Assembly: GCF_000422265.1 (NCBI RefSeq) | Contig: NZ_KE383812.1 | Coordinates: forward strand, 324,091 to 388,090 | Direction: 5' to 3' | Length of the DNA: 64,000 nucleotides | Source of the DNA: Kaistella palustris DSM 21579 | GTDB taxonomy: Bacteria; Bacteroidota; Bacteroidia; Flavobacteriales; Weeksellaceae | Part shown: positions 29,244 to 38,449 of the stretch, one piece after another | How positions within the stretch are numbered: position 1 is the stretch's first letter | How the letters are laid out: each line of letters begins with the position of its first letter | The notes under the pieces: generated by a model | What the model was told of the DNA's origin: nothing | What the model saw: the letters and a program-made list of their open reading frames with translations, nothing else | The model's database searches: none | Translations under genes and position numbers: made by a program

Positions 29244-31613
29244 ATGAATGCTCCACAAGCAATTATTGAAAAAATTCAATTAAGCGATGGCAGAGAAATC
29301 ACCATCGAAACGGGAAAACTGGCCAAGCAGGCCAACGGATCCGTTGTAGTAAAAATGGGTGGCACCATGCTCCTGGCCACAGTTGTAGCCAGCAAAGAGG
29401 CAAAGGAAGGTGTAGACTTTCTGCCACTGACAGTAGATTACAGAGAGAAATTTTACTCCGCAGGTAAAATTCCCGGAAATTTTTTCAGGAGAGAAGCAAG
29501 ACCATCTGATGAAGAAATTTTAACAATGAGATTAGTCGACCGTGTTTTACGTCCGCTTTTCCCATCAGATTTTCATGCAGAAGTTCAGGTGATGATCTCC
29601 CTGATTTCTTATGATAAGGAATGTATGCCGGAATCTTTGGCCGGACTGGCAGCATCTGCAGCGATCGCACTCACTGATATTCCTTTCAACGGACCAATGT
29701 CTGAAGTAACTGTTGCCAGAATCGACGGAAATCTTGTTGTAAACCCAAGTATGGAAAATTTAGCGAAAGCAGATTTAAATATTATGGTTGGTGCAACAAA
29801 AGATTCTATCGTAATGGTAGAAGGTGAAATGGAAGAAATTTCTGAACAGGAAATGATCGAAGCGATTAAATTTGCACACGAAGAAATTAAAGTTCAGGTT
29901 GCCGCACAGGAAAGATTAGCCGAGAAAGTTGGCAAATCACTACCAAAAAGAGAATACAGCCACGAGAACCACAACGAAGAAATTCGTGAGAAAGTTTGGG
30001 CTCAGACTTATGATAAAGTTTATGAGGTTGCAAAATCTCCTTCAGCAAAAGAAGAAAGACATGAAAACTTCCAGGCAGTTCTGGAAGAATTCCTGGCACA
30101 ATATTCCGAAGAGGAATTAGAGGAAGTGAAGCCATTCGCAAAAATCTATTTCCACGACGTGGAAAAAGAAGCGATGCGCCAAATGATCCTTAACGACAAG
30201 ATCCGTCTGGACGGCAGAACACCGGAAACCATTCGCCCGATCTGGTCAGAAGTTGATTATTTACCGGGAGCACACGGTTCTGCGATCTTTACAAGAGGAG
30301 AAACTCAGTCATTGACTGCAGTAACTTTAGGTTCTGTAAAAGACGCCAACATGGTGGACACGGTTGCCATTAATTATGATCAAAAATTCTTCCTACACTA
30401 TAACTTCCCACCATTCTCAACCGGTGAAGCAAGACCTTTAAGAGGAACTTCAAGAAGAGAAGTAGGTCACGGAAACTTAGCTCAAAGAGCTTTAGCGAAA
30501 ATGATCCCTACAGAAAATCCTTACACCATCCGTATCGTTTCTGATATTTTAGAATCAAACGGTTCGTCTTCAATGGCGACGGTTTGTGCCGGAACTTTAG
30601 CTTTAATGGATGCCGGTGTTCAGATTTCAAAACCGGTTTCGGGAATTGCGATGGGCTTGGTAACCGATCCAAAATCCGGTAAATTCACCGTACTTTCTGA
30701 TATATTAGGTGATGAAGATCACTTAGGTGATATGGACTTTAAAGTAACAGGAACTGCAGACGGAATTACGGCTTGCCAGATGGACATCAAAGTAGAAGGT
30801 CTGACCATGGACATCATGGAAAAAGCGCTACTTCAGGCGAAAGACGGAAGACTGCACATCCTTAACGAATTACTGAAAACACTTGACGCACCAAGACCGG
30901 ACGTGAAACCGCACGCACCGAAAATGGAAGTTCTGGAAGTTCCAAAAGACTTCATCGGCGCCATCATCGGACCTGGAGGAAAGATCATTCAGCAGATGCA
31001 GAAAGATTTCGAAACCGTTATCGCGATTGAAGAAATCGGTGAAATCGGCAGAATCGAGATTTCAGGTGTGAACAGAGAGAACATCAACGCAACCATTGCA
31101 GCGATCAACGAGATCTGTTTCGTTCCTGTAATCGGAAGCGTGTACAACGGTAAAGTTGTGAAAGTAATGGATTTCGGTGCATTCGTAGCGATTGCGAAAG
31201 GTACCGAAGGTTTACTGCACATCTCCGAGATCGAATGGAGACGCCTCGACAATGTTCCATACAATGAAGGCGACATGGTAGAAGTAAAATTCATGGGTTA
31301 CGATGACCGTAAGAAAATGAAACTTTCACGCAAGGTTTTATTGGAAAGACCTCCAAGAGAAGAACGTCCGCAAGGTGACAGACCTCAAAACAATGACCGG
31401 CCAAGACGCGATAACAGTCGTGACAACCGTGACAACCGCGGTAACCGCGACAACAACGGTCCAAGAGGCGACAAACGTGAAGGAAACCAAAATGGCGGAA
31501 ATAACAGACCTCAGCAAGACTCGCAATCCAGCGAGCGTTCGGCCGGCGAAGATAATTTCAAGCCTTTAAACGAAGGTGAGAATCCAGGTAACGAGAAGCC
31601 GGAAGGTTTCTAA
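29244..31613 (+). CDS. pnp: polyribonucleotide nucleotidyltransferase (PNPase)
   Basis: Phosphorolytic 3'-to-5' exoribonuclease of the RNA degradosome. Two RNase PH domains (about 1-330 and 330-560) with [21 protein letters not shown] and [25 protein letters not shown] domain with [18 protein letters not shown]1 domain with [26 protein letters not shown]. At 789 residues it is some 80 longer than usual: after the S1 domain comes a disordered tail made almost only of R, N, D, G, Q, E and P, with repeats of the [11 protein letters not shown] kind. Such a tail probably adds RNA or partner binding. Single gene with strong terminator. Confidence 0.98.
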
Positions 31614-31634
31614 CAAACAGAAATATAATTAGTG

Positions 31635-31665
31635 ATCCGCTGAATTTTTTCAGCGGATTTTTTTT
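31635..31665 (+). terminator. terminator after pnp
   Basis: ATCCGCTGAA / TTCAGCGGAT perfect 10-bp stem around a short T loop, followed by T8. Confidence 0.88.
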
Positions 31666-31713
31666 ATGGTTTAAGCTTCCCGCGCTCGCGAAGTGCTGGC
31701 TAGAAACGGTATT

Positions 31714-31830
31714 TTATGATAATACAAATTTGCCCAATTCGTCATCGATGCTTAAGCCATCTATTCCTATGAAGGCACAAAGAGATTAATTCGCTGATTG
31801 TCGGCAGAAGTATTACTGGGTTTAGCGCGT
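31714..31830 (-). pseudogene. possible remnant of a 3' coding end
   Basis: Minus strand shows two short protein-like stretches in different frames, NPVILLPTISELISLC then FIGIDGLSIDDELGKFVLS followed by a stop; joining them needs a one-base frameshift. It looks like a decayed gene end at the border of the AT-rich island. I cannot name the parent gene, and chance is possible. Confidence 0.25.
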
Positions 31831-31875
31831 TTGTTTAAAATTAATAACCTGAAAACAAGTTGTTTTTTCTAAAAA

Positions 31876-34800
31876 TCAATTGTTCTTTTTCTTGTAGAGA
31901 ATAAGATTTTCCCTAATGTAATATGCCTTTGAAGAGCCGAGATTAATCATCAAATTTAAAAACCATAAGAATTCATCCAATAATGAGTCATCTTCTTTGA
32001 TGGTTTTAAACTTGTTTTTAAAACTACTCATTACTAATTTTTCTCCATAATAATAATTTATTTCAACCATCTTATTAATATCAGATTTTAAATGCTTAGT
32101 TAAAATTTTAATCCCATAAGGCATTAAACTTTGAAAACCAATACCAGATAAAAGTTGCATTAAAGAACTTATATTAACATAATTAAGTTTCTCTATTTTT
32201 TTTAAATAAATATTTGATCTTGTTTCGTCCTGTAATATTATCCAATTATCTGCGTCAGACTTCCAATTGCCATAAAATAGAAATTCTTGATTGAATAATT
32301 TTGTTTCATATTTAACTTTTGAATAAAGTATTTCCCAATAGACCCATAAATTATCTAACATTTTTTCAGAGTCGCTATTGCTATCAACTTTGTAATAGAA
32401 CCATTGTATTATTTCTTTGATAAATTTTATAACATCATATTGTTCACGGTTTTCAGGTTTAAAATTAATCCCTTTATCTATTATAAACTCAACAAATAGT
32501 TTTGCATTTTCATTTGAAGGAATTTCAAAAAGAAAATCAACAATAATTCCTTTGATAGAAGATCCTATTTTATGATAAATATATCTTTCTTTTCCAAATA
32601 AATAAGATTCGATTTGGGCACTAAATACTTTCTCAAGAAAGTTGTACGAAAAATTATATTCTTTATAAATCGGGAAAATATGTAATGCTTTATCTAAATC
32701 CCAGTGAGAATATTTGAGGTAAGTTAGATCTGTAAACTCATAATCTTTATCATTCTGCTGAATAAAATCTAAAATTTCTCTTTCTTCATTTTGATTTTTT
32801 TTTATTTCTTTTTCTGAATATTGAACGTGTTTTTTATATTTTTTGTTAAATTCAGAATATAAAATTAATCCTATGAAACAATTATAAGCAAATTGGTAAT
32901 CTATGTCCCAAACAACTTTATTAAATGATTTATGAAGATTTTTTAAATGATGGTCTTTTTCAGGATGAATATCTCTGAGAAACAAAAAAATAAGATTTCT
33001 AATTTCATCAATTCTTATGTCATTAAATTTATTTTTAAATAAGAGTAAATTAGGTAGTGAATGATATATCGAGTCGTTATCATAGATACTTACTTTAGAA
33101 TAAAGATTTTCATAATCGCGCTCATTTGTTTTCCTTTCATATAGTTCTTTAGCAATTTTTAAAATCGTATCAATACAAAATTCAAATTCATCATCGTTTA
33201 TTTTACTGCTAAACAAATCCAATCCTAATGTTGCCAAAGTACCTACTGGAAATACATTAAAAAAGTCTAATTTGGATTTGTCATAATTTTGGTAATATTT
33301 AAAACTTTCTTTCCAATATTCATAAGAAACATTTTCTTCTGACTTCTTTTGAAATGTTTGTGCAATCCATAATGTATATTTTGAATATTCATTCTGAAAA
33401 TCACTTTGTATTTCATTACGCTGCATTTCCTTTTCTAAAGAAGCATCGACTGAATAATTAGGAGATATTTGTATAACTTTTTTACCTTCATGTTCAACTT
33501 CTTCTATTTTTTGTTTTCTACGATCGATTTCGGATAATAATTTTAAAAAGTAAACATCTTGTTTGTCATGTTTATATTCTAAAGTATCAATCATTTCAAA
33601 AATTCTTCCATCTAAATTTCCATAGAATAACTGATATTGAATTAAGAAGCCTGTTAAACCCTTATGATATTTTTGTCTATGCTCCCATTTCAATGCTTCT
33701 TTTCTTTCATTATCACATAAATCTGCTTCCCAAGAATAATTCGGCAATCCGAGTAATGATCCTGCCATAAATTCATTCGACCATCTATTTCTATCCCAAT
33801 CGAAAATATGCTTGTCAGACAAAAGGGGTAAAAATTTATCTCCTACTTTTGTAGGATAAGCCATAGTTATACTTGAAAGAACAGAAACAAGAATTACAGA
33901 GTTAGATTTTGTGTATATATCATCAAAAAATGTCTGAATTAATTCATTAGCTTTCTCTGATTCGATCTCCCCTATTTCATGTAAATATCTTTCCAAAGCA
34001 ACAACTATTGATTGCAATAAATATGGAACAGTGGTATTTCCGCCTCGATTTACAGACCACAAATAAGTAGATCCATAAATTGAATAACTTTTGTTGTTAT
34101 ATAAAATTTCAATTGTTTTTATATCATCTGCAGTCCTTGCAAAACCATCATCTTTTAAAAAATCTGATTTAACATAATATTCAACACAGTAATTTGTAAA
34201 TTCTATAATAAAATCTAATGCTTTCCAAGGATTAGTTTTGAGAAGTTTAAAAACGAATGTTTGATAAGCGCTTTGGGGAAAATAACTAAAATCATGTCTA
34301 GTAGTTAAACCGAAATGTTGTTCTATCCCGGAATCATGATGTTCAAAGCCAAACCGACTTCTAGATTTAACTTTTATATATTTCCATTTAAAATTGGCAA
34401 GTTTTATAAGTTCATCGGGAAATAATTCTGGTAATGTACCTGAATGGAAATGAGATAAAGCATATTGCGCCTGTTTTCTCTTTCTATCTTTTATTTTGTA
34501 ATTTTCTTCTGCATCTTTAATAAATAAATTATCAAGTAATACTTTTATTTCCACAGGAATGTATTTTGTCAATTTATACAGTAATTTTATTCCTTTTTCT
34601 GTTAAAGAACTGCTTTCACCTGCATTCATCCAATCTGCCCCTTCCTCAAAATTATTTAGAATCGTGTCAACAATTTTACCTACATACTTTGGTGTATCTA
34701 AATGGGTAATTGTTCCAAAATATAAAATGTTTTCCCAGTCATATAAAAATCTTAATATTTGAACGTCTATTCCTGAAATCTCGTCAATATTTTCAAACAA

Positions 34801-36222
34801 AAATTTTATGACAACGTCCCACCCCTTATTATTGGGACATTGATTAAAATCTTTCCCACTAATTTTAAGTAAGTGGATTACTTTTTTAAGTAGATTTAAA
34901 TCATCTTCTAGAAGTTCATCTTTATTCTCAATAAAAAATTTATTACATAAGTCAGACTTAATTATTGCGATTAAAATCTCATCTTTCCAATGGTTTTCAA
35001 TTGATGCATTGTTAATTGTTTCAATCACAAAGTTATAAATCCAATTTTCAGATTCTTCTACTTTAGATTCAATCCATAATCTATATCCTCTTCTGATAGC
35101 AGGTTCATTAGACAGTAAATCATAAAAAATATTAATTTTAGGATTGTTAACTTTTAAATTATTTATATACTTAATCAATCCCCAATCCTCAAATATATCG
35201 TGTGATGGAGCATATAATTCGTTTTCCTCAAACAAAATTCCATCGGATTTCAATCTATGTATAATATCTGAATCAAATTCTTTTACAGTTGTTAGTAGGG
35301 TAAGATTTTTTGCCCTCTTCACAACAACATCAATAAATGTGTTTTGTCTATTTTGTTCAAAAAGTATATTACTTCCACCAACCACATTATTCCAAAGCTG
35401 CTTTTTAAACTCGGTAATATTAATGACAGATAAATCTTCATCTGTCACTGAAATTAGTTTTTCAGCTAAGGAAAGATATTTCGGAATTCTAACAATTTCG
35501 GAAAGATGTTCATTTTTTACAATGGAATCTAGTGCAGGTATATATTTAACAAAGTGTTCCAATTCTTCGATAGTAAGTGGCGGGACTTTTATTATTGTTG
35601 AATTATTCTGTAATAATTTTTTGTCGACATAATTAAATAGTAATTTATCTAAAGCATAACTCCTACAAGAAGTAATCAATTTTACAGTCTTATTTTCTGC
35701 TAAAATTGTCATTAATTCTTTAAATGCTTCCGCATCTCCTTCCAACAATTTCTCAAAACTGTCTATATAAATTAACTTATTAGGAAACTCTTTAAACTCA
35801 TTAAATATTTCTGTAATACTTATAGAAACACTTATTTCGTGCAACGTGTTTAAAAGAGAACTTCTTAAGAATTGATCTGCTGCGAAAGATATTATACAAG
35901 TGTTTTCAAGTGATTCCAGAATTTGTTTCGCATATGCAGATTTACCTGAGCCTGCTTCTCCGTCGATGAATATAAATTGGTTTTTATTCAACAACTCTGC
36001 AATAGATAACTGAGTAAGATTTCGTCCTATTTGCACGCCCGATATATCTGATTGAATTTTATTTATAACATTTTTGGTTTGTTCAATTATGCTTTTTAAT
36101 TTTTCTTCCTTATTTTCAAGATTTATAATAATTTTCTGAATAAAATTATTGTCGCCATTTACAAAATCTCCACCTTCAGTTTTAATTATAGAACTATCAA
36201 TTTTATTTTTGTCAACTTGCAC
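31876..36222 (-). CDS. giant STAND-type P-loop NTPase with N-terminal Gly/Asn motif (candidate immune receptor)
   Basis: 1448 residues, GTG start at 36222, only 2 nt after the stop of the small upstream gene, hence translationally coupled. N-terminal motif KTEGGDFVNGDNNFIQ (14-29) repeats the C-terminus of that small protein. Then a coiled-coil-like stretch (34-62) and an NTPase core: Walker A GEAGSGKS (88-95), Walker B LIYIDSFEKL (150-159; Asp154, without the usual second acidic residue directly after), sensor LITSCRS (182-188), VPPLTIEELEHFV and a winged-helix-like ending APSHDIFEDWG. This order fits NACHT/STAND ATPases. The next thousand residues are helical-looking, rich in Lys, Asn, Tyr and Phe, and match nothing I know; by analogy they would be the ligand-sensing part. 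AT content is far above the flanks. Cytosolic; no membrane segments. Function as an anti-phage receptor is inference. Confidence 0.8.
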   Translation of the reverse strand: MQVDKNKIDSSIIKTEGGDFVNGDNNFIQKIIINLENKEEKLKSIIEQTKNVINKIQSDISGVQIGRNLTQLSIAELLNKNQFIFIDGEAGSGKSAYAKQILESLENTCIISFAADQFLRSSLLNTLHEISVSISITEIFNEFKEFPNKLIYIDSFEKLLEGDAEAFKELMTILAENKTVKLITSCRSYALDKLLFNYVDKKLLQNNSTIIKVPPLTIEELEHFVKYIPALDSIVKNEHLSEIVRIPKYLSLAEKLISVTDEDLSVINITEFKKQLWNNVVGGSNILFEQNRQNTFIDVVVKRAKNLTLLTTVKEFDSDIIHRLKSDGILFEENELYAPSHDIFEDWGLIKYINNLKVNNPKINIFYDLLSNEPAIRRGYRLWIESKVEESENWIYNFVIETINNASIENHWKDEILIAIIKSDLCNKFFIENKDELLEDDLNLLKKVIHLLKISGKDFNQCPNNKGWDVVIKFLFENIDEISGIDVQILRFLYDWENILYFGTITHLDTPKYVGKIVDTILNNFEEGADWMNAGESSSLTEKGIKLLYKLTKYIPVEIKVLLDNLFIKDAEENYKIKDRKRKQAQYALSHFHSGTLPELFPDELIKLANFKWKYIKVKSRSRFGFEHHDSGIEQHFGLTTRHDFSYFPQSAYQTFVFKLLKTNPWKALDFIIEFTNYCVEYYVKSDFLKDDGFARTADDIKTIEILYNNKSYSIYGSTYLWSVNRGGNTTVPYLLQSIVVALERYLHEIGEIESEKANELIQTFFDDIYTKSNSVILVSVLSSITMAYPTKVGDKFLPLLSDKHIFDWDRNRWSNEFMAGSLLGLPNYSWEADLCDNERKEALKWEHRQKYHKGLTGFLIQYQLFYGNLDGRIFEMIDTLEYKHDKQDVYFLKLLSEIDRRKQKIEEVEHEGKKVIQISPNYSVDASLEKEMQRNEIQSDFQNEYSKYTLWIAQTFQKKSEENVSYEYWKESFKYYQNYDKSKLDFFNVFPVGTLATLGLDLFSSKINDDEFEFCIDTILKIAKELYERKTNERDYENLYSKVSIYDNDSIYHSLPNLLLFKNKFNDIRIDEIRNLIFLFLRDIHPEKDHHLKNLHKSFNKVVWDIDYQFAYNCFIGLILYSEFNKKYKKHVQYSEKEIKKNQNEEREILDFIQQNDKDYEFTDLTYLKYSHWDLDKALHIFPIYKEYNFSYNFLEKVFSAQIESYLFGKERYIYHKIGSSIKGIIVDFLFEIPSNENAKLFVEFIIDKGINFKPENREQYDVIKFIKEIIQWFYYKVDSNSDSEKMLDNLWVYWEILYSKVKYETKLFNQEFLFYGNWKSDADNWIILQDETRSNIYLKKIEKLNYVNISSLMQLLSGIGFQSLMPYGIKILTKHLKSDINKMVEINYYYGEKLVMSSFKNKFKTIKEDDSLLDEFLWFLNLMINLGSSKAYYIRENLILYKKKNN

Positions 36223-36224
36223 TT

Positions 36225-36623
36225 TTATGATATTTGGTTATTGTCCCCAGTTATAAAATTCCCACCTCCTGTATTCACATTGCCCGTAACTACATTTTTA
36301 CTATTTGCTATAACATTGCTGATTTTCGGCAAATTTTGTAAAATATCTTTTAAAAATTTTTCATTTTCCGGATTATCTTCTATCGAGTTCTCTACAATTG
36401 TTTTGACAGCATTTTGATGATCGACACTTTCAGGTTTATCTACTAAATTTTTTAAAGCATTTTTTGGTTCGCCATATTTAAAGAATAAAGATTTTAGCCA
36501 ACTAATACTTCCATTTGTTAAACTTTCACTACTCGTTTCGACGATTTTCTCTGCACCTTTTTTGGCCATTTCTATTAAGAAAGGGTATAATACTGCTAAT
36601 GATGAAATTGTTATTGGGTCCAT
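36225..36623 (-). CDS. small putative effector with C-terminal Gly/Asn (amyloid-like) motif
   Basis: 132 residues from ATG 36623 (MDPITISSLAVLYPFLIEMAKKG...); the frame is open to 36668 but those residues look untranslated. First 30 residues: an amphipathic/hydrophobic helix followed by further helices to about residue 105 (SISWLKSLFFKYG; EKFLKDILQNL). The last 16 residues, NTGGGNFITGDNNQIS (117-132), end the protein exactly and match residues 14-29 of the downstream NTPase at 9 of 16 positions. N-terminal helical domain starting MDP plus C-terminal amyloid-type motif next to an NLR-like gene is the layout of Bell/HeLo-like membrane-killing effectors. No family was confirmed; the effector role is inferred. 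Confidence 0.75.
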   Translation of the reverse strand: MDPITISSLAVLYPFLIEMAKKGAEKIVETSSESLTNGSISWLKSLFFKYGEPKNALKNLVDKPESVDHQNAVKTIVENSIEDNPENEKFLKDILQNLPKISNVIANSKNVVTGNVNTGGGNFITGDNNQIS

Positions 36624-36680
36624 AAACTTATTTTTAATTAGTTTTCTAAAATTAATAATAAAAATCAAAGTACTACCAAT

Positions 36681-36712
36681 AAAACCAAAAAACCACCTCT
36701 CTCAAGGTGGTT
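36681..36712 (-). terminator. terminator after the tyrosine phenol-lyase gene
   Basis: Minus strand AACCACC / GGTGGTT stem with loop TTGAGAGA followed by TTTTGGTTTT. It separates the AT-rich island from its upstream neighbour. Confidence 0.75.
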
Positions 36713-36721
36713 TCCATTATT

Positions 36722-38449
<1,728 letters not shown>

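Follow-up and report, generated by a model that had tools for sequence, protein, structure and literature searches.

An Avs4-like STAND receptor lacking a fused effector shares a terminal Gly/Asn motif with its small neighbouring protein in Kaistella palustris

The 1448-aa protein encoded in the analysed window (the whole 64,000-nucleotide stretch of Kaistella palustris DSM 21579 DNA) is an Avs4-like (AVAST type 4) STAND receptor without the N-terminal nuclease, and its N-terminus carries the same short Gly/Asn motif as the C-terminus of a 132-aa protein encoded next door. The receptor family itself is already known; what seems new is a putative split-off effector linked by a motif to an Avs4-like receptor. 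On balance, the pair is probably a split Avs4, whose oligomer would recruit a Bell-like killer through the motif. The unit and its borders are as follows:

31876..36222, minus strand: receptor gene, 1448 aa from GTG; Avs4-like STAND receptor without fused effector domain
36225..36623, minus strand: small-protein gene, 132 aa from ATG; putative trans-effector with a helical core (residues 1 to about 100) and an unstructured motif tail
29244..31613, plus strand: housekeeping gene, which we take to be pnp from its sequence; island border flanking the AT-rich unit
36722..38101, minus strand: gene that we presume to be tryptophanase-like; island border on the opposite flank of the unit

Both ORFs predicted earlier are present as described, i.e., in tandem on the minus strand with a 2-nt gap, and the AT-richness pointed out in the earlier note is confirmed by GC content in 2-kb windows, 26–31% within the unit vs roughly 39–45% around it. 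An alternative, longer TTG start of the 132-aa gene is found at 36668; most homologues begin with the same Met as the protein considered here. The two-gene unit is a patchy insertion at a variable pnp–tryptophanase spot. Among the 35 other genomes of the genus searched, 7 have an orthologue of the tryptophanase-like gene (88–90% identical): it directly adjoins pnp, with no insert, in G257, G279, and G262, other ORFs separate the two genes in G267, G275, and G286, and in G283 pnp lies outside the stretch read around the tryptophanase-like gene. As a side observation, the spot (31614–36721 in the window; L103, L104, and L106) holds differing ORFs in relatives, including a 1332-aa ORF in G275, and a small ORF located there looks alike in G275 and G267.

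The large protein is assigned to Avs4 by profile, PDB sequence, and fold match. The PADLOC Avs4 profile (PDLC02169) aligns its positions 143–1570 of 1570 with receptor residues 20–1441 (E 7.5e-129), and the NCBIfam Avs4 model (NF041815) covers a near-identical range with 482 bits, which is below its equivalog cut-off of 1500, so the ligand of this receptor may differ from that of Avs4. The sole match at E ≤ 1 in a sequence search of the PDB was Avs4 itself (8dgf, E 1.4e-52), and a profile of 33 receptor relatives, some of which have the nuclease, spans 8dgf residues 2–1587. The AlphaFold2 model, covering residues 1–1150 (mean pLDDT 83.4; residues 1–38 under 50), had its best fold match in 8dgf, i.e., Avs4 bound to the portal of phage PhiV-1 (E 2.6e-36), the next protein being bovine NLRP9 (E 2.2e-7). 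The STAND NTPase recognised in the earlier note is upheld by the Avs4 profile and 8dgf matches, and the C-terminal sensor, which had seemed unlike anything nameable, turns out to be Avs4-like; both the NTPase and the Avs4 sensor are present over the full length of the receptor. Purely by analogy with the Avs4 family, sensing of a phage portal can be suggested for it. The HMM and structure searches proposed earlier for both proteins led to Avs4 for the receptor and left the small protein without a confident fold or family match. The features within the two genes are as follows:

35563..36000, minus strand: STAND NTPase core (nSTAND3-like, residues 75–220; Pfam PF20720)
35938-35961, minus strand: Walker A GEAGSGKS, within the NTPase core
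31876..35145, minus strand: C-terminal sensor half, from about residue 360 (approximate boundary), homologous to the Avs4 sensor
36139..36210, minus strand: receptor N-terminal motif KNKIDSSIIKTEGGDFVNGDNNFI, residues 5–28, in the low-confidence stretch of the model
36228..36302, minus strand: effector C-terminal motif SKNVVTGNVNTGGGNFITGDNNQIS, aligned with the receptor N-terminus

The match of PF20720 to the NTPase core (E 1.3e-5, 25.4 bits) is under its cut-off of 27.2; the Walker A residues G88, G91, G93, and K94 are invariant in A4. A fused N-terminal nuclease is absent from the receptor, since the Avs4 profile matches begin only at profile positions 139–143, and no known effector domain was recognised on it with the Pfam, PADLOC, and NCBIfam profiles. 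In a canonical relative of the same family, L041, the N-terminus matches 8dgf residues 5–184; the window receptor has no such region and starts with the Gly/Asn motif where L041 has the effector domain.

The tail of the small protein and the receptor N-terminus align with a BLOSUM62 local score of 57; when the receptor N-terminus was shuffled 20,000 times, the score never exceeded 48. The common motif claimed earlier is thereby corroborated, with its place in the receptor shifted from residues 14–29 to residues 5–28. When 345 ORF N-termini from the collected loci were ranked against the tail, every one of the top 20 came from a receptor of such a pair, though with the other motif subtype some receptors scored against the window tail no better than background. 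The motif is Gly/Asn-rich and near-constant in length, its typical form being K-N-x-x-x-G-x-x-x-T-x-G-G-x-x-x-x-G-D. The C-terminus of the putative effector and the N-terminus of the adjacent receptor share a motif, as in Bell/BASS. A motif profile, built partly from pairs of the family and then run on 316 genomes, gave 17 matches at E ≤ 1e-3, including 16 in 8 adjacent pairs; the remaining match is in G012, where the motif of the receptor has diverged and falls below the profile threshold. The profile did not list the IVGDGN-subtype loci G062, G064, and G255 (missed or not drawn). Another 21 weak partial matches (E 0.001–0.01) within ORFs of ~1060–1144 aa were taken as noise.

The small protein has 38 homologues besides itself. 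Its AlphaFold2 model (mean pLDDT 72.4) contains helices within residues 6–97, and the tail (residues 101–132) has pLDDT < 50. No confident PDB or viral fold match, a HeLo/MLKL-like four-helix bundle included, was obtained for the model with Foldseek, VIA-align, and BFVD; the Pfam, PADLOC, and NCBIfam profiles recognised no domain in the window protein, and a scan of viral contigs gave no relative by that route. HetE-N (PF20701) scored 12.2 bits in the window protein, below the Pfam cut-off of 25 bits; in relatives, it was matched in 1 of 41 at E ≤ 0.01 (best E 1.3e-4) and in 2 of 36 at E ≤ 0.1, and precomputed PF20701 annotation is attached to 4 of 39 proteins. A HetE-N scan of 296 genomes of the order gave no match, the positive controls being likewise undetected. 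No EAD domain was recognised in the window pair or among 41 small proteins.

A relative of the core emerged from a tblastn search of plasmids with the small protein, where the single weak match was in Arthrobacter (27%, E 0.1). The core aligns with the Arthrobacter protein over nearly its full length (BLASTP E 2e-9 for the pair), and hhalign gave a probability of 93.9 (P 1.5e-7) against the Arthrobacter family, compared with 0.5 for the reversed control and ≤4.7 for 60 column shuffles, in keeping with the helical, Bell-like core proposed earlier. The Arthrobacter gene lies directly upstream of a gene read by Pfam as WD40 (E 3.9e-14), whose product also has a NACHT-like NTPase (E 1.4e-5, just under the cut-off), and this pair has a motif of its own common to both ends (score 40, equalled by 23 of 20,000 shuffles). 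According to the available part of a review (PMC7889193), an adjacent effector and receptor with a shared end motif represent the Bell/BASS layout. By these comparisons, the small-protein core is related to an Arthrobacter protein of Bell/BASS-type gene layout; it is called “Bell-like” because the link to Bell consists of gene layout and one actinobacterial family.

The coupling of the two genes recurs in other genomes. The genome-contig scan yielded 20 loci, with the small protein in 18 of them and the motif tail alone in L019 and L020. The pairs were arranged in 24 rows (36 matches including re-fetched copies; L003 and L018 share ends), where the next gene starts at −47 to +6 nt and the motif is seen by eye on both sides; a further small-protein match, L033, is cut by the contig end and stands outside these rows. 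The receptor is Avs4-like in 10 rows and belongs to another class (~1130 aa where complete) in 14, the latter being assigned to one class by N-terminal similarity. Loss of the motif with adjacency kept had been named earlier as evidence against a linked pair: the motif is there on both sides in 24/24 rows, and it is degenerate in the receptors of L006, L013, L016, and L026, all of the second class. L003 and L018, which come from a Chitinophagales MAG and from a genome of Kaistella, have identical tails and receptor N-termini, suggesting a recent transfer or a mis-binned contig.

The survey of 320 genomes of the family revealed a clear small-protein match (E ≤ 1e-24) in 12, and a motif-bearing receptor adjoins it in all 12 (5 Avs4-like and 7 of the second, PIN class by N-terminus; in G281 two contigs each hold a part of the small gene). 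Six weak matches (E 3.6e-4 to 9.7e-4), located within long ORFs, were discarded as unrelated. The same genomes harbor 23 Avs4-like loci, 5 motif-only and 18 with a fused N-terminus; this total derives from 26 places, with L063 (G277, profile 1–233 only) removed and the loci of G260 and G227, both in two pieces, taken as one each. The small partner stands beside 5/5 motif-only loci vs 0/18 fused loci, for which about 0.7–1.5 kb upstream was read (for many, only about 0.7 kb). Hand arithmetic puts such a clean split at one in 33,649, a figure that is not a true probability because several fused loci are near copies. Among the 17 genomes with fused loci, 15 are without any small-protein match, and in the other two, G059 and G064, the match adjoins a PIN-class receptor. 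In a sample of 395 genomes of the phylum, two more genomes showed Avs4-like matches (G499 and G578), and no motif-only locus was seen in either. The receptor/partner unit proposed in the earlier note is consistent with these counts, and receptor homologues without a partner, named there as a possible refutation, did not occur among the five motif-only loci.

These counts also bear on the view that the small protein regulates, inhibits, or stabilises the receptor (antitoxin-like), with the killing done by something else. Small size, tight 2-nt coupling, and the lack of a recognised domain would suit such a role, which we nevertheless consider highly unlikely: no known effector domain could be discerned in the receptor, and the partner is missing from the relatives with a fused N-terminus, as expected if the small protein replaces the effector.

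Replacement of a cis effector is also suggested by the receptor tree, an unrooted one built by a quick method, with some long branches, from the region from just before Walker A onward in 57 chosen rows (47 of the 117 receptor homologues, 9 loci, and the window). Here, the 20 short receptors (17 with the motif and 3 with another N-terminus) form one group with 100% SH-aLRT, nested beside forms with a fused GGGG-FE domain (P0083 and P0084, then P0086), which argues for the replacement. The motif is found in 38 of the 41 short receptors with a complete N-terminus among the 117 homologues; the other three (P0057, P0060, and P0063) have a second, different N-terminus and occupy three separate places on the tree. 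Hence, the keeping of the motif expected of homologues stands with the caveats of these three receptors and of G012, where the receptor motif is below threshold. The second N-terminus is of the DI.NSS..VDIV type instead of the Gly/Asn motif. Other Avs4-like relatives presumably carry Mrr-like or protease-like N-termini; the GGGG-FE and protease-like ones are named by their look, as we take it, and gave no PDB sequence match, and no Pfam domain was found in the N-termini of P0083, P0087, and P0113. A trypsin-like N-terminus (TAKH/TARH pattern, by eye) was noticed in P0113–P0119, L050, L055–L061, L065, and L067, and this form predominates among the fused loci of the family survey (12/18).

The small protein also pairs with an unrelated receptor class, TPR-GreAB-C-PIN. 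All nine tested receptors from the 14 non-Avs4 rows have a match (E ≤ 0.01) to PF20698, which represents the PIN domain of that system, above the cut-off in L008, L010, L013, and L015 and below it in L006, L011, L012, L014, and L017. Service to two unrelated receptor classes is a further point against a regulator, and so is the effector fused to TPR-GreAB-C-PIN that, in the accessible portion of Kaur et al. 2021 (PMC8195603), is listed as a domain also occurring in fungal HetE; this is presumably Pfam HetE-N, which some relatives of the small protein match.

The two sides of the motif vary together in the PIN class, where real partners scored 64.4 vs 50.7 for permuted ones in 14 pairs (p = 5e-5, the lowest value that 20,000 permutations allow). 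Only 4 of the 14 tails score best with their true receptor; hence, the pairing goes by subtype and is not one-to-one. In the 10 Avs4-class pairs, the same test was blank (p = 0.79), being uninformative because the motifs are too uniform there. Natural swaps are more telling. The cores of L006/L026 lie inside the Avs4-type clade (98/97), but these proteins have GDDY-type tails and a PIN-class receptor; the core of L009 is nearest to the PIN class (63% to L010), but its tail is FINGDGN and its receptor Avs4-like; L010, whose receptor is of the PIN class and whose core shares 75% identity with that of L013, has both motifs of the NGDNN/NGNNN kind. In these swaps, the tail tracks the partner, not the core. 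The small-core tree, from which L018 was left out as a fragment, requires the partner class to have changed 3 times, or at least twice going by the starred branches.

One might argue that the motif is a mere oligomerisation or solubility tail with no role in recognition, kept by duplication of the gene pair. Its low-complexity look, the uniform motifs leaving no co-variation in the Avs4 class, and the low number of first-ranked partners in the PIN class fit this reading. It is, however, barely credible in view of the concordant switches of the motif in both partners at L010 and L011/L012, the tails tracking the partner class at L006/L026 and L009, and the 16/17 motif matches lying in adjacent pairs.

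The motif was also met on other proteins. In L019 (3853-6210), it ends a weakly DUF4062/TIR-like protein (below Pfam cut-offs), and in L020 (3010-4869), it is the tail of an EAD11 protein (E 6.5e-20). In both loci, a TPR protein comes next, its N-terminus bearing a matching motif, which suggests other effectors on the same motif plug. In L032 (1501-3379), both motifs seem ~2 residues longer before GD, as if co-changed (by eye). A broader reading, somewhat less likely than not, is that Bacteroidota own a portable, coded adaptor motif plugging interchangeable killers (Bell-like, weakly DUF4062/TIR-like, EAD11) into interchangeable sensors (Avs4-like, TPR-GreAB-C-PIN, TPR proteins), with at least three subtypes, FINGDNN, GDxY, and IVGDGN among them, keeping the pairs apart; Avs immunity would here operate as amyloid-type signalling, as in fungal HET-S.

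Under the favoured reading of a split Avs4, a phage protein (the portal being the likeliest one, given the family) would bind the C-terminal half of the receptor, which would then oligomerise through its STAND NTPase. The oligomer would cluster the short N-terminal Gly/Asn motifs, and these could serve as nuclei for the matching small-protein tails, or capture them, in an amyloid-like, templated recruitment. The small proteins gathered in this way would act as effectors via the Bell-like helical domain, with the membrane as the likeliest target, and the infected cell would be killed or arrested. Alternatively, the motifs of the same split pair might dock on the receptor oligomer in a defined beta assembly, small and with a fixed stoichiometry, e.g., stacked beta-arches or a beta-solenoid cap, without self-propagating amyloid templating. 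This course of events seems rather unlikely to us, albeit worth serious attention: a Gly/Asn-rich motif of near-constant length, of low confidence when alone in both models, is compatible with it, the pairing evidence fits it equally well, and Avs4 in 8dgf (the oligomeric state of which we presume) is a defined assembly with the portal. At the same time, the layout equals that of BASS/HET-S, where fibrils, foci, or prion behaviour were reported for some motifs, as far as the available parts of PMC7889193, PMC9815663, and PMC7885112 go.

A split Avs4 signalling through a motif would join two lines of work that appear separate in the excerpts at hand, on Avs receptors and on Bell/BASS motif pairs; for the latter, the portions of the literature covered name no trigger. 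If the Avs4 portal trigger holds, the pair would offer motif signalling with a defined, expressible ligand, so that templating by bacterial NLRs would become directly testable, and the natural swaps would serve as ready-made specificity controls.

Compared with known systems, the pair resembles Avs4 (8dgf) in the STAND NTPase, the sensor homology beyond the effector, and the best fold match, and differs in that the fused N-terminal nuclease has given way to a ~24-aa motif plus a small protein encoded separately. Avs receptors are described with a fused N-terminal effector in the available text of PMC12931631, and none of the open-literature papers covered (PMC12881547 among them, Gao et al. 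2022 and Dyrka et al. 2020 not) deals with an Avs whose separate effector is linked by a motif. The likeness to Bell/BASS consists in the C-terminal motif of a small helical protein matching the N-terminus of an adjacent STAND receptor. BASS, known here from citing papers, is reported in the accessible part of PMC9815663 to be widespread in Actinomycetes, Cyanobacteria, and Archaea, whereas here the receptor is Avs4-like or TPR-GreAB-C-PIN and the host belongs to Bacteroidota. With fungal HET-S/NWD2, the pair has in common the gene layout and the presumed logic. The published TPR-GreAB-C-PIN genes are, by the available portion of PMC8195603, mostly standalone and equipped with fused effectors; here, the small protein has a gene of its own next door, and the motif provides the link. 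Finally, EADs, presented in the same portion as alpha-helical adaptor domains, are likewise homotypic modules joining the effector and receptor of adjacent genes, and in the pair considered here their place is taken by a Gly/Asn motif of ~25 aa.
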